Below, in pieces: positions 18,868 to 55,307 of a stretch of 64,000 bases of DNA. The translations under genes were made by a program, and so were the position numbers. The notes under the pieces are model-generated. The model was not told the origin of the DNA. It saw only the letters and a program-made list of their open reading frames with translations, and did not search any database. The stretch's first letter is position 1. The number at the start of each line of letters is the position of its first letter. The stretch is taken from contig NC_035793.1 in NCBI RefSeq assembly GCF_001653235.2, positions 248,001 to 312,000 on the forward strand, in the 5' to 3' direction. This stretch comes from Pochonia chlamydosporia 170. Its lineage: Eukaryota; Ascomycota; Sordariomycetes; Hypocreales; Clavicipitaceae.

Positions 18868-21167
18868 TTAAAGGCTTGTTGGTGGGGACAGCGTTGAATC
18901 TTCGACTGTAAAGCTCGGCCAGAACGCCTGCAAACATATTAGAGACTCATTCACTACCAAATAACCCAACGAGCAACTTACCGAAGAGTCAAGGTCCAAC
19001 CAATCCGTTAACTGCCAGTCATCCAATATAAGCGGCACTTCCATTGCAAGCGCAGGATCTGGGCCGAGTTGGTCGTTTGATCCCGGCACGGTTCGTTCTA
19101 TAATCGTGATCGGCAAACTGCTGCAATTCTCGCCTCCACCATACGAAGGGGTCTCGGGCGTAATATGCCGTGCAGGATGTCTGTTTCTATCTCCTGGTTT
19201 CTGTCCCCTAGCTTGATTGACAGCCAGCGACCGAAACTCCTCTAGGATGACAGCATACCGTCGACTCGGCGAATTAGATGCTGTAGCCTGAGCAAGGTGT
19301 GTATGACATCGTTCCGCCAGACGCACAAGAGAAGATCTGGCACTCTGCCCACCGTCTTGACTCATTCGGTGATGCTTAATTACCCAGACATAGGTGACGA
19401 CTAGTGCGCAAAACGTGACATAATGCGTCCACCAAAACGCATGAAAGATTGGCCCATCCTTCGCCATGTAATCAACTGTTTCGAGGACACTTTTCGCGGC
19501 TTTGATGCAGTCTTGTATTTGAAGGCTGTACTTGGATACCGGATTTCGGAGGAGGAACAGCCGGTTTGCATGCATGATGGCATGGGCATGTGCTAACTTC
19601 AGGACGATGGCTTGACGGCGATAGCTTGGGATTAGAATAGCCGGGTCGATGCTGCCCAGGTGAATGGGTAAGCTACGGTGCCATTCTTCGACATGCTTGG
19701 TCATTTCACCGGCGGCGATAATTCTGTCATGTTCGGTACTGTGCTTGTATGAGTAGACCTCTCGCGATATCCGTCCAATGATTCTTGCGATTCTACGAAT
19801 ATGAATTAGTACGCCCTCATCACAGTACAACTTCTGAATCCATACTTTGCGTGAAATATTAATGCGTCGGTGTGGCAACCGGATCGATTCTCAGTTAGCT
19901 CACATATTGGACCTGATGGAGTCATCTCTTCATCATTGACTCTGTCAGGCCAATCCTGGTCAATGTCATCGTCGTGAAATACTCGTGGCCGTCCAAATAC
20001 AACGCCCAAATAGTTGTCGATGATGTATGCTGACCAGAACGTCCTCAGACAACATTGTTCATGTATGTAATCTGGTTTGGCGGCCCTCCTTCTCGCGATA
20101 TTAGCTCGCCTCTGCCATCCCAGAGCTGCAATAATGCGAAGAGCATGTCCAAATGTATACCATGCCTGATTGAATCGGGAAGTAGTGAGCAGGTACAATG
20201 TCTGTACCATATGCGCTTGCGCAGATTCCACAACGGGAACTCCAGTCTCCTGGTCTGTCAGCCGCGTAGAGAAGGCAAACAGTTCATCGGTTCCTCGAAG
20301 TGCTTGTGCATCTTCTTCCTGGGCGACGGTGAATTTGGATTTTTCTTGGTGTCGTTTAGCCATGGCGAGCGCAACATACACCACTGCTGCCTTGGCCCGC
20401 CCAATGCTTGTCCAGACTGGGATGCCCTCTTTGACGTTGTTTTGCATTGTTGATAACCATGTATCTACTGAAGGTCGGTGTAGGCATCGGTATGTGGCAA
20501 TGCAAACATCGAAATACAGAGTCATTAATACCTTTGCATCTTCTATGTTGGGAAGGATATCTTGGGTGATGTCTCTGCTTACGGACAAACTCTTATCGCC
20601 GGACATGGTAATAAGATGAGACTCTGAGGATGGTCGATATTCAGTGGCTTCATTCTTGTCCTTCTTTACAGAGAGGCGCTTCCAAGCTCGGTGCAGAAAA
20701 GCGAGACTTGATGTTGGATCAAACACTTGTCCCTGTATTTCTGCCATACCCAGCTCTGGCGATGCCCTTGACGGTCCGGTGCTATCACCGTTAGGGCCAT
20801 GGCTGCTTGTCACCTGCATCGCGCTATTATGGGCATCCAGATCAGTACCATTTCGACCCATGGAAGCTTGTCTTTGGTCTTGATCATATTCCAAGCTGTC
20901 GTCATTCTCAATGCTTATCGTCACTCGTCTGGCAGCATTTGACGGCGGTGGAGTTGTCTTGGTCCCTCTTGTGTAGCTAGCATTGTATAGACACTCGATG
21001 TCTCGGGCAATGCACTTTTCGCAGGGCTGGTCTCCCGTACACTTGGCTTTCTTCAGCTTACACGAGTCGCAGGCTCGTGTTACTTTCCGGATCTTTGGGG
21101 TCGACGGGTCGTTTCCGGAGGCATACTCGGCCACACGCTTTTGGCCTTGCATTGCGAATCCGCCCAT
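18868..21167 (-). CDS. Zn2Cys6 transcription factor with fungal-specific regulatory domain
   Basis: Exons are 21167-19846, 19792-18982 and 18927-18868, giving 730 residues. The ATG at 21167 is the first good start; the frame is open for 26 codons upstream without an ATG. The binuclear zinc cluster CDSCKLKKAKC...PCEKCIARDIEC lies near residues 30-60. The middle homology region (LMTLYFDVCIATYRCLHRPSV through GLRIIAALGW-like helices, about 190-400) matches the fungal_trans domain. The 54-base third-exon intron is a multiple of three and stop-free, so it could be retained; its GTAAGT/CAG borders favour splicing. The gene sits next to an MFS transporter and the NRPS-like gene, so it is the natural candidate regulator of that locus. 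Confidence 0.85.
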
Positions 21168-21836
21168 CAACTCTGGGGACTTTGGCTCCAGTATTCGGAT
21201 TTTATTCCGAGCTTGGCGATGCGGTGGATCAGTCCGGAAAGCCAACCATTTTATTTTACACCGGTCTCGAAGACGAGCGACCGTGAGTCATTGTCTCTCA
21301 GGATCTTTCAAGTATGTCGTTGAAAACAATAGGTCGCTTTTCTTTGTTGAACAGCTGAATTTGGCGAAGCTTGATGGAATATTGTAAGTCTGAAATCCGG
21401 GTGGTTGAGGTTGGAAGGCGGAAAAGCATTTCAAGCCGGAAAAAGACGATTGATTGACCATTTGGGTAATTCCAATTTGCGGGGTTGTGGGGAATCCCTG
21501 CATGTGCAACTCATTTGCATCAGACTAGACTGTTTCAGGGTTAGGGTCTGAGAATAGGGTAGCTGTCCTTTACACTTTTTGCTGGGCATCATTGAATTCC
21601 ATAACCATTCTAAAACGCCATAGGATAGGTAGTTAGCATCTCGGAGTTTGTGAGATGCTTAATACGCAAGACGGAAGTGGTTTAACGTTACTGTTATTGG
21701 GCAGTAAGAAACCGGATTAAAGCAGTTGTAATTCCACAGGTCCTAACGTTGTATGGAATTGGGCATATTATCAAATTAATAAGGAAGATGGGTTGCTATG
21801 ACAGCACCGAAGAAAATTCCTCGTGTCTTACATAAC
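21168..21836. other. Intergenic region upstream of the regulator
   Basis: About 670 bases between the regulator start and the MFS transporter stop; both genes are on the minus strand. It holds the regulator promoter and the transporter 3' UTR. No repeat or clear TATA box was seen. Confidence 0.4.
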
Positions 21837-23526
21837 TTATAGCGTATACTTAAATAAAGGACTCTTGTCACCCATACGCAGCAACTCATCCTCACTATAC
21901 CTAGCCCGAATCTCATCCTCTGGAGTCTTGGCTTTCCTAACATTCCCCCATTTGTAGCTAAGTTCCAACAACAATGCCACAATCACACCAGTTGCACCAA
22001 ACGCCAGAGACAGAGAAAACCCAGTCCAGTACTGGGGTGCCTCTCTATCCAGGTACATGTACGACCCAATGATGCCGCCAATATTGCCGATGCAAATGTT
22101 AAAGGCCACGCCAATTGCTCGACGACTCGCAGGAGCCAGGTTATTCGCAGCCCAACTACTACCAGCTGGTTGCACCGGATAGATGCCCATACAGGTCAAA
22201 ACGAGGGCAAAGTACCCAGGACCGGTATGGCTGCCCTTCAAGTTGCCTTTGAACCCCATTACGATGGAATATCCAATGGCAATCAGGGACAGAGGAACTG
22301 CCACAAACGGCATTCGCCAATGGAAACGGTCGGATAACCGGGCGAAGAAGATGGAAGATAAACCTCCGGCAACGTATGCGGGTACCGTCATCAATTGCGC
22401 GTTGGTGTTGGTGAAGCCCATGCCCTTGACGATGGAGGGCAGCGTAAACTTTGTGCCGTAGGAGCAAGCGGAAATGCAGAGAAGGATGTACGCCTGGCCG
22501 TATAATCTCCAGTTGGTAACCACCATCTTCATGTCGTGCCAGTTGAATTTCTTGTCATTAGTCTCCTCAGCGAATCGTCCACCTTGTTTGATGAATGTTT
22601 GCAGTTCAAGGAAACGGATTTCTTCCGTCGTCAACCATCTGGTGGAGAATCGAGGAGAGTCAATAAGTAGGAAGAAGCATGCGACACCTAAAATGACTGT
22701 CACAATACCCTCGAGAATGAAGATCCATCTCCAACCTTCGTAGCCGCCAACGCCATCCATCTGAGCGATAGCAGCGGCAAGTAATCCGGAAAACGCACCG
22801 GATAGTGCGCTCGTGCAGTAAAAGTAGGCAATTCTGGTTGCAAGGTCCCTTGGCATGTACCAAAAGGTGCAAAGGTACACCGCTCCAGGATAGAAGCCGG
22901 CTTCGAAAACACCCAGCAGGAGTCGCACGGTGAGCAGTCCAGCAAAGTTGTTAACTACACCGTGGAGAGTCATGATGATGCCCCATATAGTGACGAGAAT
23001 GCCGATGTACACGGAGGGTCGGTCAAACTTTTTGAGAAGGACGTTGCTGGGAATTTCTAGCAGGATGTAAGGCACGAAGAAGAGACTCAGAACAATGTTC
23101 CATTCGTTGTCTTTGAGTTTTAAGTCTTCGGCAAGTCCTTCAATTTTCGCATTTCCTTGGCAAAGGTTAGCAATTTTCCGTGTTTCTGAACCTGCTGTAA
23201 CTTACCGATATTGGCACGATCCAATTGCGAAATAAGGTACAAAACCGCCAGCATAGGCACGAGCCGAACATCAACCTGTGAAGGATGGTCAGTCTAATAC
23301 GGCTTGAGAGCTCAGAGCGACGTACCTTTCGAGTGATGCGCTTTCGCTGTTCGGGAGTTACGCTGTTGTAAAACGATGCGTCTTCCGCACTCAAACCCAG
23401 AACCCTAATCTCATCAATCAAGTGGATCTGTCTCGCTTTCTCATCATCGTCTACTGTTTGTGCTCTGTCCAATTCATCCACCATGATGACATCGGGCTTG
23501 TCAGAGCCTGGATTTTGCAACGCCAT
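21837..23526 (-). CDS. MFS transporter, anion:cation symporter (allantoate/nicotinate permease) type
   Basis: Exons are 23526-23326, 23275-23206 and 23155-21837, giving 529 residues. The start ATG is at 23526. Around residue 85-92 the protein reads LDRANIG (the LDRxNIGxA motif of the ACS/Dal5-Tna1 family), followed by about 12 hydrophobic segments, including FYPGAVYLCTFWY and PAGSSWAANN, both typical of this family. It probably imports a small organic anion or an amide- or pyridine-type compound with protons at the plasma membrane. The substrate cannot be named from sequence. It shares a 574-base divergent promoter region with the NRPS-like gene, which suggests co-regulation, either for uptake of a precursor or export of the product. 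Confidence 0.9.
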
Positions 23527-24100
23527 GTTCAACTATTCAAGATACGTGGGGGAGAAAAATGGAGCGAATTTTTGCCAATGTACTAGATGCCAGTCTTGAT
23601 TGTTTGTACGCGGGAAATAGCTGTCATTTATGCAATTTGTAGATTGGCGCCACGTTCATGGGATGCACAGGGGATAACAAGAGTTTACCCCGGATTTTCA
23701 TCACCCTGTTGGATGAAACGCCCGCATTGCCCAGCTACCCGCATGGCTTTGATCACGGAAAGTATGTTTTTACCTCATTTTTTGCGTTTTGTCCCGGCTA
23801 AGTTGCGTTGTGTCTGCCGATGGTGGAATCCGATTCATCGACATGAAATCCGGACGGCGCATCTCCGCATCGGAAAAATATCCGCAAGCCAAGGTTAGGG
23901 GACATCACCGCTCCGGATATCGCTGAATGCGATTCACAAGGGTTAGGTGGTGTATTCCAGAGATCTGGGGTTTGCGATACCGGCCATAAATTGTAAACCA
24001 CTGAGAGATATAAGCTCTGCCATCGGCACATGCACTTGGCGCAGTCTCGACGGCATGAATGTTGAGGGACAGTATACCTCCTCACAGAGTCACAACCATC
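23527..24100. promoter_or_regulatory. Divergent promoter between MFS transporter and NRPS-like gene
   Basis: The 574 bases between two start codons that point away from each other. Two copies of the palindrome TCCGGA occur at 23849-23854 and 23912-23917, and further CCG/CGG triplets lie between them. Zn2Cys6 regulators usually bind paired CGG/CCG triplets, so these are candidate sites for the nearby regulator; the assignment is inference. A TATAAG element at about 24008-24014 lies roughly 90 bases before the NRPS-like start codon. Confidence 0.4.
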
Positions 24101-27100
24101 ATGCCTGCTACTGTTTATGTTCCCGAGCCTCCACGGGAGACTCTCCCTGTTCAAATCCCGGACCAAAATGCCAATAGAGCAGCAGCCGATAAATCTACAA
24201 TCTCGAAGGCTGAGGATGCGACTCTCAAGACTGTAGATAGTCTTATCCGGCAACGTGCGGCAAGATATCCTGACAAGCACATCGTTTCGTATCCACGATC
24301 TGGTGTGCAATATGTCAACTACACCCTGAGACAGCTAGACGTGTTCGCATGGAGGGCAGCCAATTGGTATTCCAAAAGCCTGCCCAGTAGGAAGAGCTCA
24401 TCAGGGAAGCCAAGTGTCATAGCTGTTCTTGGGCCATCCAACTTGGAGTATCTTATAACCCTCCTGGCACTGACCAAACTGGGCCATTCGGTGCTTTTCT
24501 TATCGACTCGCCTTAGTATTCCGGCAGTTGAGTCGTTGATGAAGACCACTTCTGCCAACACTATCATCGGTCATGGTCGCCACTTGAGTACTGCGACAGA
24601 GGCGCAGAAGATTCTTCCTGGCGTTGAGGTCCTGGAGATGTCTGATCGAAGCGATTTTGAGTATCCGATCGAAGCCCATGGGAATACGCAATTGGACGCC
24701 CATCTTGACCCAGAAGTTGAGCAAAACAACATAGCGTTCATTATTCACTCCAGCGGTATGTGAAAACCAGACATAATTGAAGAGGTATGAAAATGCTGAC
24801 AATTTATAGGGTCTACCGGCTTGCCAAAACCAATTTACCAAACTCAAAAGTCCTGTCTGGCCAACTACTCCTTCAGTATGAACATGAAAGCCTTCATAAC
24901 ATTGCCACTGTTTCATAACCACGGCATCTGCAATTTATTTAGAGCAATCTACAGCCTGAAGTCAATTCACCTCTACAACGCTGAGCTGCCCCTGACTCAA
25001 GAATATCTGATCGACATTCTTTCACAGCACCAATTTGAAATATTTTACGGTGTGCCATATGCTCTCAAACTTCTTTCCGAGACACAAAATGGCATTGACG
25101 TACTTCGAGAACTGAAAATCGTCATGTATGGCGGGTCTGCTTGTCCGGATGACTTGGGTGATCTACTAGTTGAGAATGGAGTCAACCTAGTTAGTCACTA
25201 CGGCGCGTAAGTACATACTCCTATATTCGGTGCATTTTATGTAGTTCTGACCCTCTTGAAGCACCGAAATCGGACAACTCATGACCTCCTTCCGGCCAGA
25301 AGGGGACAAGGCATGGAACTATGTTCGCGAAACGGACAAGTTGTCACCCTACCTTTACTGGAAACCTCACGGCTCACATCTGTACGAGTGTGTCGTTACT
25401 GATGGCTGGCCATCCAAGGTTCAATCCAACCAGCCTGATGGATCTTATGCAACCAAAGACTTGTTCGAGGCGCATGCTAGCATTCCCAGGGCCTGGAAGT
25501 ACATTGCTCGTTTGGACGATACCATCGTATTAGTTAATGGCGAAAAGTTCAACCCTGTCGCCATGGAAGGCACAATAAGGTCAAATAAGAACGTTGCAGA
25601 AGCCGTTGTGTTTGGCGCCGGTCGGCCGTATCTGGGAATGCTAATTGTACCTGCAAAGAACATGGCCGGAAAGACGGACTCGGAAATTCTGGACATCATC
25701 TGGCCAGTTGTTGAGTCTGCAAATGAAGCGGCCGACGGGTTTGCCCAAATTTCCAGAGCTATGATCAAGTTGCTGCCACATGATTGCGAGTATCCACGAA
25801 CCGACAAGGGCAGCATCATCCGGCAGGCTTTCTACAGGACATACGAAGCAGAAATTCAGGAAATGTATGATACTGCTGACATTAGCGCATCCGGCGATGA
25901 TTTGCGACAGATGGACCTTCCAGAGCTTCGGAATTTTATTCGTCAACTGGCAAAGGATGCTCTGCAGAGTGTGCCAAGCTTGGCGGATGATGAGGACTTC
26001 TTCACTCTAGGTCTGGACTCTCTACAAGCGATACAAATGAGGAGCGAGATTCTTAAAACTATCGATATTGGAGGAAAGCGACTAGGGCAAAATATTGTTT
26101 TTGAGAATCCCTCTGTCGAAAAGCTAAGCAGATTCCTCCATAGTCTCCGTCTTGGAGATTACCCAGATACGAGCATTTCTGTGGAGAAAGAGATGGAATC
26201 ACTCATTGAGAAGTATACGAACGTTGGTGTTAATATTGGAGACAAAGCGTCTGCTGTGGTGAGTTATTTGGTCGTCGAGGCTTGTTATGAAGGAAACTGA
26301 CAAATCGGCATAGGTGGTGACGGGAGCAACAGGCTCACTTGGAGCACACGTTGTATCTGAGCTCGCGCAGATGAGCAGTATTCACCAAATCTACTGTCTC
26401 GTTCGCGCGGATGATATCTCCCAAGCTATGCGAAGAGTAAGGTCTTCCCTCATACGGAGAAAAGTCTACCATCGCCTCACTCTCACTGCCAGGAGAAAGA
26501 TCGTTGCCCTGCCCTCCGACTTTGCCAAGCCGGAATTGGGTCTCAACGAAACAAGCTATGCAGAGATTACCAGTAGACTCCTTGCTGTGATTCACTGCGC
26601 TTGGTCGGTCAACTTCAACATGCACCTGTCCAGTTTCGAGAAAGGCAATGTAGCCGGTGTCTCTCACCTCCTATCACTTTGTCGCTCTGCACAGCCTCCT
26701 GCGTCGATGAACTTTTGTTCATCAGTGAGCACATGCTCACGGGCGACAGAAACGCCAGTGCCAGAACGATGTCCGGATCTAGAGTGGGCACAGGAAATGG
26801 GATACGCACAGTCAAAGTCCGTTGCTGAACACTTATGTGCGAAAGCTGCCGACCAAGGCATCACCACAAGAGTGCTCCGGGTTGGCCAAATTGTGGGTGA
26901 TTCCAAACACGGTGTATGGAATGCTCAAGAAGCACTGCCTATGATGATGCAGACGGCCCTTACGGTTGGGGCATTGCCGCAACTCAGGGAGACGCCGTCC
27001 TGGCTGTTTGTGGACGTTGTTGGGAAGGCTGTTGTCGAGATTGCGCTCTCGGATGCTGGGAGCGTCTTTGCAAACGTAACGAACCCTCACATGTTCAGTT

Positions 27101-27951
27101 GGATGGACGATCTGCTACCTGCTTTACGCGAGTCTGGCCTTTCCTTTGAAGAAGTCGAGCCGAAGGAATGGGTTCGACGGTTACGCGAGTCGAATCCTGA
27201 TCCGACCGTGAACCCGCCGATCAAGTTGGTGGACTTTTTTGCTTCCAAGTATGACAAGGAGTTGTCCGAATTCAAGCCCTCGAAGTCCTTTGCGACAGAG
27301 ATTGCCTGTTCGTTATCACCAAGTCTTGCTGCGGCGCCTGTCCTGAATCAAGACCTGGTGGATAAGTTCGTGAAATACTTTCTGAATACGGCATGGGCAT
27401 CACAGGTCAGAACAGCAACTTCGAAGACGGTCATTATAGTTGCAGGCCCATGTGGCACAGGGAAAACGACAATTGGCACAAGTCTAGCTCAACAAGCTAG
27501 AGTACCCTTTATTGAAGGTGACTCATTACACACGGAGAGCGCAGTAGCTAAGATGAGATCTGGTATTGCATTGACAGAGCAATATCGCATGTCGTGGCTT
27601 GATCGTATTATACGACACTCTGTAGAAGCTGTCATGGAGCTTGGATACAGCCAAACGGTGGTCAGCTGTTCTGCCTTGACTGTTGAGTTGCGCCGAATCA
27701 TTCGCGATGGGCTGGCAAAGGCGTCCGTCGGTGTCGTGTTTATAGATTTACAGGCAGACCGGGATGTTCTCTTGCAACGAGTCCAAGCTCGTACTGGTCA
27801 CTATATGGGTGATAAAATGGTCGACGGACAGGTCGAGTTGTACGAAAAAGCTGGGGAGAGTGAGATAGATGTTCTCCCTGTTGATTCTGGTGCGGAAAAG
27901 GACGTGGTGCTTTCGGAGATAATGTCGGTGTTGGAAATGATGAAGAATTGA
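24101..27951 (+). CDS. NRPS-like adenylation-carrier-thioester reductase fused to gluconokinase-like kinase (A-T-R-GntK)
   Basis: Exons are 24101-24755, 24810-25206, 25262-26258 and 26314-27951, giving 1228 residues. The adenylation domain has IIHSSGSTGLPKP, SHYGATEIG, YIARLDDTIVLVNGEKFNP and YPRTDKGSIIRQ. The carrier domain has LGLDSL with Ser604 for phosphopantetheine. The reductase domain begins VVTGATGSLGAH (about 684-695) and has GYAQSK with Tyr847 and Lys851. This is the layout of fungal aryl- or amino-acid reductases that activate an acid and release it as aldehyde or alcohol. Exceptionally, the same exon continues without a stop into about 170 residues matching the gluconokinase/GntK family: Walker A GPCGTGKTT (1061-1069, Lys1067), FIEGDSLH, KMRSGIALTEQYRMSWLDRI, VVSCSALT and RVQARTGHYM. 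Both halves look catalytically complete. The natural substrate is unknown. The ATG at 24059 is in frame and could be an alternative start, but 24101 has the better context (ACCATCATG). Confidence 0.88.
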
Positions 27952-28837
27952 ACTGTCTGGTTACACTTAGAATAGGAATGTATCGTTGGAATCGACCCTG
28001 TCTATCTTCACGGTAAAATTAAAATGTGATTCAGATAGCATCGAGCGGTGTAATGCCATTCCGTCGTTGGGATCACCTTCAAACACGATTGACATGCATA
28101 ACGGGCGTTGACGGGTAAATTCACTCGCAATGGAAGCGGTGTCACCAGTAGAAATGTGTCTCCCGAGTTTTCCGTCTTAGTGTTGCCGTTTGCCGATTTT
28201 CCTACCCAACTTCCTGGGTAATTGAGCAACGAACACCTCCGGCCCGCCGATGACGATGATTGATTTGGACTGAAGATGTAAGATAGCCATTAGTTCCCCG
28301 CGCTCGGAATCTATGCCCGCCCATAAGTGCTGTCTCGCCGTATCAAGATGTCTGATAAACGTGTTAGGCTCATGGCTGGCATCCTATGTCCCTGCTAGCC
28401 TCTACAGGTCTACATGGATGTCACCAATTGCCTGTAAAGCCCTGCGGCTTTCCACCCAAGTCAACTTGACAGGGAACAGCTCTCTCTGTCAGCGTGGTAT
28501 TCTCGTGGGAAACATGAACCCAGCTAGAACGCAACTTACCAGCGACGGGTTAGGGCTTCGAATTCTGTATGGAACTAGCTTGTCTTTTCTATAGTAGAAC
28601 TTGTTTTTGCAGCTTAATATTTTATTTCAACATCGGCTACGTGTTCCTGTTCTTGCAGGGTTGCCTCGACTTATTGCTGACGCTAAAGGTCTTTCACCGG
28701 CCATATTCTAATTGGTTCAACCCGGCTACAGGATGATGTATCAATGAACGAAAGCCACATATACCAAGCAATTGCCAATGTAGGCTCTGCCACATGGCTC
28801 TGAAATCACACCAAAACCTAAAAGGTAACTATTCAAC
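27952..28837. other. Intergenic region between NRPS-like and esterase genes
   Basis: About 890 bases with no recognisable coding sequence. A 93-codon frame at 28313-28594 on the plus strand has no motifs and no family resemblance. The promoter of the esterase gene must lie in the last few hundred bases. Confidence 0.4.
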
Positions 28838-30548
28838 ATGTCGAATCTTGCAGCTGCTTGTACCCCTTCCACCTTCACCTCCGGCATCAATGTATTTGGC
28901 ACTCAACTCCTGAACATCGAGGCACATCTCATCACAAACTACTCTCGGTCGGTCCCCAATCTCTACCGCCCGGTCCACCCGTCCGTTGAAGTCCAAAACG
29001 TCAGCTTCTGCAATGTAACTCTGTCATACACCCACACAGGGCAGCATGACGAAGTATTTCTCGAGACATGGCTCCCAATTGGGAACTGGAATGGCATGTT
29101 CCAGGGTATTGGTGGCAGCGGTTGGGCGGCAGGTCGTGTTGATGTGAGTTCGGGAGGGATGGCCGGTGCTGTCGGCGATGGCTTTGCAACAAGTTCGACA
29201 GATGGAGGAACCAAGGGATTAGATGCCGCGGCGTGGGTTCTCAAAAGTCCCGGAAATGTCGACTTGGTAGCCTTGCAAGATTGGAGCGCGGTGTCACTGG
29301 GTGAACAGGTATGTCTGCCTTCCTTCTAGATGAGCGACTCATCTCACGCGGGGTGTATCAGGCCACTATCAGCAAGTCTCTCATCAAAAGCTTCTACGGC
29401 AAAAATCCTAAATATTCCTACTGGATGGGCTGCTCGCAAGGCGGTCGACAGGGCATCATGCTGGCTCAGCGATACCCAGACGCATACGATGGCATTGCCG
29501 CCTGTGACCCGGCCATGTACTTGACTAACATCTTGCCTAATATATTCTGGCCGTATCAAGCAATGGTCAATGCCGGCTCGTTCCCGCACATGTGCGAGTT
29601 CGACTCCATCACTGCTGCGGCCATTGCAGCCTGCGATGAGCTTGACGGTGTAAAGGACGGCGTTGTGTCCAACCCGATGAAGTGTCTAGACACGTTTGAT
29701 CCGTTCAAGGTTGTCGGCCAGACACTCAATTGCTCCAACTCAAAGGACGGCAGTGGTATCAAAGTCTCCCGTGAGGCAGCCCAAGTTGTAAAGGCAACAT
29801 GGAGAGGTTTGGCTAGGAAGGACGGGGAGGTACTCTGGCCAGGTGTGAGCCCGGCGGCGGATTTGACCGGGAACAAGCCTTCATCATTGGGTCTGCCTGG
29901 CGTACTCCTTACTCAATGCAAGGACGGGAAATGCTCGGGGGCTCCGTATGGCCTAGGCGGTGACTGGCTTCAGTACTTTGTGGCCAAGGATCCCAACAAG
30001 GATATAAGTCATCTTAGCCAAACTGAGTTTGATGCCCTGGTGAACCTGGGCGAGCAAGAATACGGTTCTTTTATTGATGCGTCCTACGCCGATCTCTCAG
30101 CGTTCCGGGCCGCTGGCGGCAAGATGATTGTTATGCAAGGTCTTGTAAGTATTTTTTGCCCCATGGTAAGGATGAGTCTTAATATCGCAGCTGACACCGT
30201 ACCCAACCATAGGACGATGAACTAGTACCCTTTCGTAGCACCGAACACTACTACAACTCCGTCTCCAAGGTTGTTCCTCATACCCACGATTTCTATCGCC
30301 TCTTCGAGGTCCCCGGTTTGAGCCACTGCGTCGGCGGTCAGAGCCAGCAGCCCGTGCGACTGTTTGCCCAACTGCGCGAATGGGTTGAGAAAGGAACCGC
30401 ACCAGCCTGGTCGCCGGTGAAGTTGAATGTCACCGGTGGACATGTTCACGATCGTATCATATGCCCTTATCCGCAGACAGCGCGACTTAGTGCGTGTCGG
30501 GACCCTGCGTTGGAGAGGTGTTGGAAGTGTGTAGGGAGGTTGGATTAA
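28838..30548 (+). CDS. Tannase/feruloyl esterase family hydrolase
   Basis: Exons are 28838-29308, 29362-30144 and 30213-30548, giving 529 residues, the normal size for the family. The nucleophile motif GCSQGG has Ser182. The acid residue is Asp419 or Asp420 in the GLDDELVPF segment, which matches the family's GL.D.L.P pattern. The His is 456 in PGLSHC, flanked by the Cys residues that form the family's characteristic disulfide next to the triad. The end, CPYPQTARLS, is also typical. It should hydrolyse phenolic esters (galloyl, feruloyl or similar). Oddly, the N-terminus MSNLAAACTPSTF lacks the hydrophobic signal peptide that secreted tannases carry, so the enzyme may be intracellular, or a short upstream exon may have been missed. 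Its position beside the NRPS-like gene suggests a possible tailoring or release role, but this is inference. Confidence 0.88.
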
Positions 30549-51705: not shown

Positions 51706-52416
51706 ATTACTGGTATTATATAACAATATGAAGAAGCAGTGTGTTTGGTGTTTACGTCGGCATGACTTTTGTTCAAGGAGGCGGTTTAACCCAGTCCATA
51801 GTTTAGTTCATTCAGGAGAAGGAGAAATAGTTTTCTACGTAATTACATTATTTGCTGCTCACGTGTTCATTTGCGCGACTCAGAAGTAATTATACTACAA
51901 CAGAAAAAAAAAAATTGAAGCATACCACTTCTCTAAAGTTCCCATGGTGTCGATACTAGCTTGTCCTAATGACGCTGAATTCCTTTGTACTCTTACCTTG
52001 CCACTCATGCGGTTGCAAATGACCGGGTACAATGAACTGTGATTATCAGTACCAATGCAAATTCCCGGGACTCGGAGCAGCAAGGGTGCAAAAGACTGGT
52101 CGCCCAGTTTGGTGCCACCTTGTGTCTGAAGTCGCCGAAACTCCGAAACACCGCAACCATCAGAACAACTGGCGGGATTGACAACCTCCAAAGCGACTAG
52201 CATGACTTAGTCCACATAGTTTAGTTCTCGAGACCACTGACCGAGTCTGGAGGTGGGACGAGTAGCAAAAGTGTCAGATCGGTCCTGTACCAGCCTGGCG
52301 CTCATGAAATTCCCAAGTATGCCATTCATATAAGTACAAGTTTACAGTTCCCTACTATTCCCATAGCTACAGTCATCATATCGCCTTCTTATCCCATATT
52401 CTCTCTCCACGCCATC
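51706..52416. other. Intergenic region upstream of the RidA-amine oxidase gene
   Basis: About 710 bases with a poly-A run near 51900-51913. A minus-strand frame (51895-52203) lacks any motif. A TATAAG element at 52329-52334 lies about 85 bases before the next start codon, followed by a CT-rich leader. Confidence 0.4.
52329..52334 (+). promoter_or_regulatory. TATA box of the RidA-amine oxidase gene
   Basis: TATAAG within CATATAAGTAC, about 85 bases before the ATG at 52417. A pyrimidine-rich leader separates the two, as is usual in filamentous fungi. Confidence 0.45.
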
Positions 52417-54439
52417 ATGACCCTACCAAAACCGGCCGCCAAGACTCTGAAGCCAACGGCAGTACCCAGCACAGGGCCCTTTGCTCACGTTGGCCACACC
52501 AATGGACCTTCCAAAGTGATCTTCACTTCTGGCATGGTTGGCCAATACCAAGACGGAAGTATCTCGGATTCATACCCCGAGCAAATTAAGCAGAGTCTCG
52601 TCAATATTTCTCATTGTCTTGAAGCTGCTGGTGCAACGCCCAAGGACGTGCTCAAATTGACCTACTACATCGTCAACTACGACCCTAATAATAGGCCGCA
52701 TGCTGCACTAATATTTGAGTGGCTCGAAGGGCATCGACCGGCAACGGCGCTTGTACCTGTGCCTCGTCTAGCCAACCCCAAGTTTCTGTTTGAGATTGAA
52801 GCAGTGGCGGCTGTCAGAGATCCATCATTAGCTGCACCAATACCAGCACCCATGAGCGGAACAGTGACCAACGTTGATGTTGTTGTTGTGGGAGCTGGCC
52901 TCAGCGGTCTTCAAGCAGCATATGATCTTCAACGGGCGGGCATAAGAGCTGTTGTTCTTGAAGCTCGGGATCGAGTTGGTGGCAAGACTTGGACGGTTCC
53001 CACTGCAAATGGTCAGGGGGTCATGGATCTGGGAGCAACTTGGATCAACGACACAAACCAGTCCAAGATGTGGGCTTTGGGCCAGAAACTGGGATTGGAA
53101 TATACTACTCAGACAACCAAGGGTGATACCGTGCTCCAAGATTATGGGAGATTCCCATTCGGCGAGGTGCCACCTGTAAGATCGCCGAATATTGGTTTGC
53201 CAGATCCGTTGCTAACAGTCGTATAGCTCAGTACCAGAGAAGAACAGGAGAATTTCGTAATGTTCCGAGATTTGGTTGAGGATTCGTGTCAACTTATCGA
53301 CATTGAACGTCCCTGGGTAGCGGGGAAAGCTCTTGATTCCATCACCTTTGAGCAGTTCGCGAGACAGTCAGGCTGTCTGCCCAAGACGTTGGAATACGCC
53401 AATCTCTGGGTTCGCGCCATGGTAGGCGTTGACGGCTCTGAAATCAGCGCTTTGTACTTCCTGCATTACTGTAAGAGTGGCGGAGGGTTCAAGCAGATGC
53501 GCTCAGATGGGAAAGATGGCGGTCAATATCTCCGGTGTAAGACAGGTGAGTACAATGTTGACGCCCATCCACGACTCAAACTGATGCAAACTAACGAATG
53601 CCAAAGGAGCCCAAGAGTATGCGAGTGGAATCGCAGCCATGATGACTCCGGGGTCCATCCTTTTGTCCAGCCCCGTCGCATCCGTTCGTCAAATCGGCGG
53701 AACTCGCGGTGAGGTTGTCGTAACAACCAGAAACAACTTGACATTCCGGGCTAAGAAGACAATTATTTCTGTTCCTACGCCACTCTATCGAGACATTACT
53801 TTCAACCCGCCCTTGTCAGGAGCGAAATTAGAGCTCTCCAACAACACACGACTAGGCTACTTCAGCAAAGTTATTCTTGTCTATGCGAAGCCCTGGTGGA
53901 AGGAAGCAGGACTTGCTGGCTTGGCTCACTCACTTAATACGACCGTGAATCTAGGGGGAAGCGAGCCAGACACCGCAGCTGCCAGCAACGGAGCCGGACC
54001 AATTACTCTGATTAGGGATACCTCGCACCCAGAAGATGGTGTTTACGCTTTAACATGCTTCGTTGTCGCGAACACAGGTCGGGCTTGGTCTCAGCTCCCA
54101 GCCGCGCAACGCCGTTCCGAAATTCTTTCACAAGTTGCTTCAATCTACAAAGATATAGATAGAGACGTTGTTTACTCACCTGTGGAGATTTTTGAGCAGC
54201 AGGAATGGAGCAAGGAGGAGTGGAGCAAAGGCTGCCCGTGTCCCGTAGCCGGGCCAGGAGTATTGAGTACAGTTGGTCACGCCATTCGGGAACCCTTTGG
54301 CAATGTACACTTTGTTGGTACCGAAACCAGTGTGGTTTGGAAAGGGTACATGGAAGGGGCTGTGAGAAGCGGCGAGCGTGGTGCCACTGAAGTTGTCGAG
54401 GCTTTGAGAAAGGCTGCGACTCCTACAGCCAATCTTTAG
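52417..54439 (+). CDS. RidA-domain flavin amine oxidase fusion
   Basis: Exons are 52417-53175, 53227-53545 and 53607-54439, giving 636 residues. Residues about 15-135 form a RidA/YjgF domain (VIFTSGMVGQYQDG, ISHCLEAAGATPKDVLKLTYY, FEIEAVAAV), whose family hydrolyses reactive enamines and imines. Residues about 152-630 form an FAD amine oxidase: VVVVGAGLSGLQAAYDL (dinucleotide-binding), EARDRVGGKTWT, GATWINDTNQ and, at the end, FVGTETSVVWKGYMEGAVRSGER, which is the monoamine oxidase signature. The oxidase makes an imine from an amine, and the attached RidA domain could speed its hydrolysis to an aldehyde or ketone. Whether the RidA catalytic Arg is kept is unclear, since HRPATALVPV replaces the usual xRSxV. 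The gene is the last of the amide/amine cluster. Confidence 0.9.
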
Positions 54440-54833
54440 TCTTGAACATGCATTCATATACACTTCAAAATAGACTCCATCTTTCATTCCTGATTTGACT
54501 CGTCATATGGTTGTTACCGAGGGACCTTTTGTTTCTGACATTGCAGGTATGTGCCAACGTGAACACATCGATCAACATCAAAACGCTGAAAGTGAGGCTG
54601 CTTGTGCTACCCGAACTCGAGGCCCAGGACGTATTAGGCGCCCATGCAGATACTTTACTACTCTCTTTAATTTGACGAATATTTGTATCGTTTCCCCCTC
54701 ATCTGTGCTTTCTGTCTCTCTCCAAGGTCATCAAAATTCACAACTGAGCAGTCCCTTCCAACTGAAAGAGTTGAACAATCTCCCTTCATTTACTACAGTG
54801 ACCCCCTTCCTTCTGCAACACTCAGTTCTAGTC
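54440..54833. other. Intergenic region upstream of the DUF7587-like gene
   Basis: The reading frame is open through most of these 390 bases, but its translation is low-similarity and Ser/Thr-rich, so it is read as promoter and leader rather than coding. Long CT-rich runs (54660-54800) fit a fungal leader. Confidence 0.4.
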
Positions 54834-55307
54834 ATGGTCCTACTCTATCGTGTCAGTGACGCCGACGCCCAAGCAAAGCGTCACCCGGGTCAGGGTATCG
54901 TCACTATAGAGGACATGCAGGTCGAAGTAAGACCGTTTTTGGACTGGCGAAAATGCACCCCACGGGAGTACCGGAAATACGCGGAATTGCTGTACGAACA
55001 CATGGACTGGCAATCCGACGCCATGTCTCCATTCATCTCAGCCACGAGGGACTACAACTGGGCGAGAGGCGAAGCCCGCCGGCGAGTGGAACAGGGAAAC
55101 CAAGATGTTGTCATCTACCACATCGAAACAAAAATTTCAAGTGGAAATGTACAGTTCCGACCTATTTTAAGTCTTCTCGAGCGACTGGGAATTGAGGAGG
55201 ACGAGCTCAACTACGGCGCCCAGGCTCTGCTTGACCATGAGTGCCTCTTCTTGCATCAGATACCGGAGGAATCAATCGTGAGGACAGAGCACTTCAGGAG
55301 TCTTTAA
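54834..55307 (+). CDS. DUF7587-like protein
   Basis: This is a single-exon protein of 157 residues from the ATG at 54834. It begins MVLLYRVSDADAQAK and then GQGIVTI, like the N-terminus of fungal DUF7587 proteins ('LYRVxDxxSxxR'). That group has been compared with ADP-ribosyltransferase folds, but I see no decisive catalytic motif, so no activity is claimed. The rest is acidic and aromatic, ending HLQIPEES-like. An ATG at 54495 is in frame and would add 113 residues of unlike composition; the downstream start is preferred. Confidence 0.55.
   Translation: MVLLYRVSDADAQAKRHPGQGIVTIEDMQVEVRPFLDWRKCTPREYRKYAELLYEHMDWQSDAMSPFISATRDYNWARGEARRRVEQGNQDVVIYHIETKISSGNVQFRPILSLLERLGIEEDELNYGAQALLDHECLFLHQIPEESIVRTEHFRSL

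Follow-up and report, generated by a model that had tools for sequence, protein, structure and literature searches.

A carboxylate-reductase-type protein with a built-in gluconokinase-like domain in Pochonia chlamydosporia and other filamentous ascomycetes

Why should an enzyme that appears built to activate an acid and release it as an aldehyde carry a gluconokinase-like kinase at its C-terminus? The question is raised by a gene within a 64,000-nucleotide stretch of the Pochonia chlamydosporia 170 genome (NCBI RefSeq GCF_001653235.2, contig NC_035793.1, positions 248,001 to 312,000, hereafter the window, in whose numbering coordinates are given), the product of which joins adenylation (A), carrier (T), thioester reductase (R) and gluconokinase-like (GntK) domains. 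Carboxylate reductases are sought-after makers of aldehydes, and a broad group of the fungal ones bears an unexplained kinase, the substrate of which, once found, would probably show what the whole group makes. The fusion is real, conserved, apparently uncharacterised, and already in print as a domain annotation; to this our analysis adds a likely single fusion, an altered substrate region, repeated loss of the kinase, and the loss of a tyrosine from the window's own copy.

Gene structure and domain content

The reading frame runs from ATG to stop through four exons, all introns are GT..AG, and the joined exons yield 1228 codons and one stop. The parts of the gene are:

24101-27951, + strand, whole gene from ATG to stop, 4 exons, 1228-residue A-T-R-GntK protein (reading frame)
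24101-24755, 24810-25206, 25262-26258 and 26314-27951, + strand, exons of the fusion gene
24248-25325, + strand, adenylation core (AMP-binding, Pfam PF00501), residues 50-372, spanning the introns 24756-24809 and 25207-25261
25515-25877, + strand, C-terminal part of the adenylation domain (AMP-binding_C_3, Pfam PF23562), residues 436-556
25935-26138, + strand, carrier (T) domain (Pfam PF00550), residues 576-643
26019, + strand, first base of the codon for the phosphopantetheine Ser604
26314-27951, + strand, last exon, carrying reductase and kinase in an unbroken frame
26317-27030, + strand, thioester reductase (Pfam NAD_binding_4), residues 685-922, with GATGSLG, Tyr847 and Lys851
27031-27429, + strand, C-terminal part of the reductase and short linker to the kinase, residues 923-1055
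27430-27930, + strand, GntK-type kinase domain (TIGR01313), residues 1056-1222

Matches to the Pfam families AMP-binding, AMP-binding_C_3, PP-binding, NAD_binding_4, AAA_33 and SKI all exceed their cut-offs, the last two being P-loop families that match within residues 1056-1221. A preliminary description of this DNA, made from the sequence, had placed reductase and kinase on one uninterrupted exon, and this is confirmed: the last exon is a single open frame of 545 codons, without a stop between the two domains. The motifs it named also lie where it put them (GATGSLG at 687, YAQSK at 847 with Tyr847 and Lys851, GPCGTGKTT at 1061, GDSLH at 1085, CSAL at 1135), and these motifs, the domain matches and the recurrence of the same order in other fungi establish a four-domain fusion on one chain. 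That two genes had been read as one through an error of annotation, splicing or assembly is extremely improbable, and we rejected it, since the junction is spanned by a single exon and the identical junction recurs in annotated proteins from many genera.

The carrier domain matches PF00550 at 36.6 bits, with the phosphopantetheine Ser604 lying within GLDSLQ. In the reductase the GxxGxxG motif and the Tyr/Lys pair are present and the predicted fold is that of an R domain; the thioester reductase profile TIGR01746 scores 213.0 bits, just below its cut-off of 213.35, in a match that extends to residue 1039. AlphaFold2 modelled the reductase-kinase exon with a mean pLDDT of 90.8 and a pTM of 0.90, and Foldseek matched this model to the thioester-reductase domains 4u7w and 8aep. 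Among solved structures 8aep, titled as the reductase domain of a Neurospora crassa carboxylate reductase, is also the closest to the R domain in sequence. The adenylation domain has SSGSTGLPKP, YGATE and DKG, which we take to be its motifs, and its best solved relatives are distant CoA ligases and similar enzymes. With these motifs intact, the A-T-R part appears to be of the carboxylate reductase type and would release an aldehyde. The acid that it activates is probably a non-alpha-amino acid, to judge from binding-pocket rules and from similarity to acyl-CoA-ligase-type enzymes. The window protein has its A, T and R domains in common with the fungal carboxylate reductases NcCAR, AtCAR and PnlA as these are treated in the main text of PMC9605436.

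The gluconokinase type of the C-terminal domain, also part of the preliminary description, was upheld by profile comparison: TIGR01313 (gluconokinase, GntK/IdnK-type, NCBIfam) gives 127.1 bits (cut-off 113.75), and shikimate kinase was rejected as the better family, PF01202 reaching 30.3 bits. The Foldseek search of the reductase-kinase exon also returned the gluconate kinases 3t61, 1knq, 1ko5 and 1ko4 (TM-scores 0.80-0.89 by target length); gluconokinases are absent from the VIA-align rows, which are occupied by the reductase part, and this is no argument against the kinase fold. Like the GntK/IdnK gluconokinases (1knq, 3t61), whose fold it has, the window kinase contains Walker A, the Asp of GDxLH, the Arg of DxDR, CSAL and the lid Arg and His (Lys1067, Asp1086, Arg1108, Cys1135-Ser1136, Arg1176 and His1179), and all six of the features that we scored are kept. 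Those enzymes differ in being stand-alone, and in commonly having the Tyr of CSALxxxYR and the Asn of HxxxN, in place of which the window kinase has Leu1142 and Ala1093. We refer to the domain as gluconokinase-like and not as a gluconokinase.

Distribution and printed record

The preliminary description knew of no described enzyme of this kind, but neither an undescribed architecture nor one peculiar to this locus is supported by searches of public proteins and the literature. A whole-protein search matched 1461 proteins, and among the best 120 of these 1461, 101 have a precomputed Pfam assignment to a kinase-type P-loop family (PF13671, PF01202 or PF13238). The matches listed include Trichoderma, Fusarium, Colletotrichum, Verticillium, Clonostachys, Alternaria, Bipolaris and Diaporthe, among other genera; of those listed, the nearest is from Conoideocrella luteorostrata (67%). 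A search with the kinase part, which admits only proteins 0.55-1.75 times the length of the query so that shorter or longer partners could not appear, found 56 proteins, every one of them also with adenylation or reductase families, and added Pseudogymnoascus and Neophaeococcomyces. The A-T-R-GntK order is widespread in filamentous ascomycetes. Seiridium P0093 (2096 residues) and P0119 (2050 residues) are annotated as A-T-R-kinase proteins with an added PF09949 domain, which may be a wrongly joined neighbouring gene or part of a real, larger fusion.

The architecture has been tabulated before: Ehrlich and Mack 2014 (PMC4073137), in their Table 2, give Aspergillus flavus AFLA_054270, a protein of 1251 residues in cluster 18, as 'A-T-R-gntK', and in UniRef many members are labelled 'gluconokinase'; with the many fungal matches, this table entry led us to reject a unique or undescribed architecture. 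AFLA_054270, compared by domain table, has the same four-domain order as the window protein and a similar length, and what that source gives for it is a domain annotation and an expression near zero (RPKM 0.1). In the open-licence literature we found no other paper under this gene name and no characterised member of the A-T-R-GntK type, in keeping with the preliminary description. Li et al. 2022 (PMC9605436) include PFICI_12508 among thirteen P. fici A-T-R enzymes, which are given there as without reported biosynthetic or biochemical work. This protein is P0087 in our set and its kinase is intact, although the main text of that paper never mentions a 'kinase'. A parallel is offered by the glycine-betaine reductase ATRR (A-T-R1-R2), which, as PMC11050029 describes it, likewise adds to an A-T-R core a C-terminal catalytic domain acting after the reductase; the added domain of ATRR is a second reductase, whereas that of the window protein is a P-loop kinase, with no second reductase present.

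Origin, divergence and loss of the kinase

The fused kinases cluster next to stand-alone gluconokinases of fungi, which makes one fusion likely. In a careful tree, built from 42 of the 167 rows of a quick tree plus P0134 and with P0138 left out, 25 fused kinases form one group against 18 stand-alone ones (support 94/88, and 97% of 200 bootstrap trees), and this group adjoins five stand-alone kinases, two from Lipomyces, one from Trichomonascus, one from this genome and one other. The sequences thus far point to a single old fusion of a fungal gluconokinase as likely, though not beyond doubt, because the quick tree puts three fused sequences among stand-alone ones: over its 167 rows the fused label needs two changes, with one set of 65 rows (62 stand-alone and 3 fused) and another of 34 (33 fused and 1 stand-alone). 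The three fused rows and the one stand-alone row in question are probably P0135-P0137 and P0138, the last an annotated partial protein of Fusarium avenaceum.

Alignment of 83 intact fused kinases with 62 stand-alone kinases, the latter mostly bacterial or metagenomic and in few cases fungal (Lipomyces, Trichomonascus, this genome), reveals that P-loop, Asp1086, Arg1108, CSAL and lid residues are common to both, and that two other sites set them apart. Site 1093 is Asn in 54 of 62 stand-alone kinases and in none of the 83 intact fused ones (Ala in 69, Ser in 12, His in 2), and Arg1114 is present in all 83 fused sequences vs 9 of the 62. Disappearance of the Asn and fixation of the Arg indicate that the substrate region has changed and point to a changed substrate, which for the fused kinases may no longer be gluconate.

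The state of the kinase was scored across homologues: 136 were examined, 22 less complete ones were set aside, and 114 whose coverage of A, T and R was 90% or more were kept. All six scored kinase features occur in 83 of the 114; 13 keep Walker A and the Asp with another feature missing; 7 have a kinase that is degenerate but still attached; 8 have less than one fifth of the domain (seven have none, and P0108, which may be a truncated gene model, keeps the start of the P-loop); and 3 are truncated models. On an A-T-R tree the degenerate state requires at least 5 changes and absence 4 (3 if P0108 is a truncated model), numbers which, like the direction of loss, are estimates since the tree was built with FastTree, has local support values only and is rooted at its midpoint. 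One clade consists of five kinase-less proteins (two Biscogniauxia, Camillea, Pseudomassariella and another Xylariaceae), which makes errors of gene modelling unlikely in these five; single absences elsewhere may be such errors. The aligned kinase-less relatives end in the linker (residues 923-1055), just past the last helix of the reductase.

The rest of the protein hardly registers these losses. Among proteins with an intact kinase, 413 A-T-R columns are at least 90% conserved; 345 of them are equally conserved in the 15 rows with a degenerate or absent kinase, and only one of the 413 mostly differs. Repeated loss or decay on a nearly unchanged A-T-R core marks the kinase as accessory and probably dispensable for the chemistry of the reductase, which, its core being much the same with or without the kinase, probably takes the same acid either way. 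Kinase-bearing, kinase-degenerate and kinase-less homologues on this core amount to a natural experiment, making the role of the kinase a directly testable question. Fusarium nematophilum has two A-T-R paralogues, P0006 and P0076; the kinase is intact in one of them and degenerate in the other.

The window's copy itself departs from the others. A Tyr that is near-invariant in the kinases compared (143 of 145: 81/83 intact fused and 62/62 stand-alone) is Leu1142 here, and two Asp residues are replaced, by Glu1105 and Tyr1107; in P0002, the nearest relative of the window protein, the equivalent of Arg1108 is lost as well. Mean identity to the window protein across 97 homologues covering all domains is 46% for the kinase vs 66% for A and 65% for R. 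All four active sites had been described as looking intact, which is right for the core catalytic residues but, with Leu1142 in the kinase, slightly too strong. The domain is probably still a kinase, its substitutions suggesting an early stage of erosion, and in the window's lineage it may be altered or on its way to being lost.

Proposed function and genomic setting

Formation of an adenylate, transfer to a carrier as thioester and reductive release of an aldehyde are the established chemistry of these families, and PMC9605436 gives this sequence of steps (acid, adenylate, carrier thioester, aldehyde) for A-T-R enzymes. In the window protein the A domain would use ATP to activate a carboxylic acid, and Ser604 in the T domain would hold this acid as a phosphopantetheine-bound thioester, which the R domain would reduce with NADPH, releasing the aldehyde. 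The C-terminal kinase, putatively derived from a fungal gluconokinase, would use ATP to phosphorylate a hydroxyl group on some small polar compound of that pathway. Its likeliest target would be what the reductase takes up or produces, which phosphorylation would trap or route; the step would be an accessory one, dropped in several lineages with the A-T-R core unchanged. The preliminary description suggested that the kinase could act on a substrate or product of its own enzyme, and we keep that proposal, argued from the ancestry and conservation of the kinase, in a modified form that allows for its several losses and for a reductase that probably does not need it. A carboxylate reductase releasing a non-amino aldehyde, with an attached but dispensable kinase for phosphorylating a substrate or product that bears a hydroxyl, is accordingly a reading to which we give tentative credence, a little short of an even chance. 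A dispensable kinase might also have a substrate unrelated to the reductase. A full-length model of the Trichoderma homologue P0033 (1199 residues, in which window residues 799-826 have no counterpart) reached a pTM of 0.50, so the geometry of any channelling cannot be read from it.

The main rival holds that the kinase still phosphorylates gluconate, the 6-phosphogluconate feeding the pentose-phosphate path and hence the supply of NADPH to the reductase, so that provision of the cofactor is coupled to its use. TIGR01313 above its cut-off, gluconate kinases as the closest kinase folds, the P-loop, Asp, Arg, CSAL and lid residues common with stand-alone gluconokinases, and an adjoining group of five stand-alone kinases (four of which belong to named fungi or to this genome) all speak for it. 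We nonetheless consider it unlikely, as every one of the 83 intact fused kinases is without the substrate-region Asn and fixed for Arg1114, and as two other gluconokinase loci in the same genome mean that gluconate phosphorylation needs no fusion. The genome has six matches to PF23562, and only the window locus has both PF23562 and gluconokinase matches. Improbable to a similar degree is that the kinase of this species is a relic or structural tail on an ordinary carboxylate reductase. The degenerate but attached kinases among the homologues, the eight further cases with under one fifth of the domain (five in one clade), the lower identity of the kinase than of A and R, and a missing near-invariant Tyr, with still more erosion in P0002, would all fit such a tail; the six scored catalytic features that the window keeps, a frame open to its end and a confidently predicted kinase fold would not. 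Our preferred combination of reductase and dispensable kinase also has a bolder variant, in which the fused kinases would be a distinct small-molecule kinase subfamily with a non-gluconate substrate, working on the hydroxylated acid or aldehyde of the reductase to which they are joined and so taking an acid to a phosphorylated aldehyde on one chain. We know of no such enzyme activity, and regard this variant as rather doubtful; if it is true, lineages that lost the kinase would release the free aldehyde instead.

Beside the fusion gene lie:

19809-21287, - strand, Zn2Cys6 regulator with Fungal_trans domain (profile match)
21840-23201, - strand, MFS transporter, main open frame, divergent from the fusion gene (Pfam PF07690)
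28829-30222, + strand, tannase/feruloyl-esterase family gene, two open frames (Pfam PF07519)

Domain matches bear out the presence of these three neighbours, which the preliminary description had named. The esterase frame 29305-30222 scores 156.3 bits, and frame 28829-29326 scores 21.1 bits, below the cut-off of 29.8. A probable first exon of the MFS gene starts near 23532 (- strand), with an ATG a few bases in, so that the gene would occupy 21840-23532 and, being divergent from the fusion gene (24101, + strand), share with it an upstream region of roughly 570 bases.

The second stand-alone gluconokinase-like locus of the genome lies at C10:251633-252173 (- strand; loci L005 and L008), where an in-frame TAG opens the second matched segment, marking either an intron or a pseudogene. 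Elsewhere in the window, a frame at 52225-53223 (+ strand), probably continuing into 53227-55304, has a RidA-type domain (Ribonuc_L-PSP) ahead of the beginning of a flavin amine oxidase, and so joins an imine-handling protein to an oxidase that produces imines.
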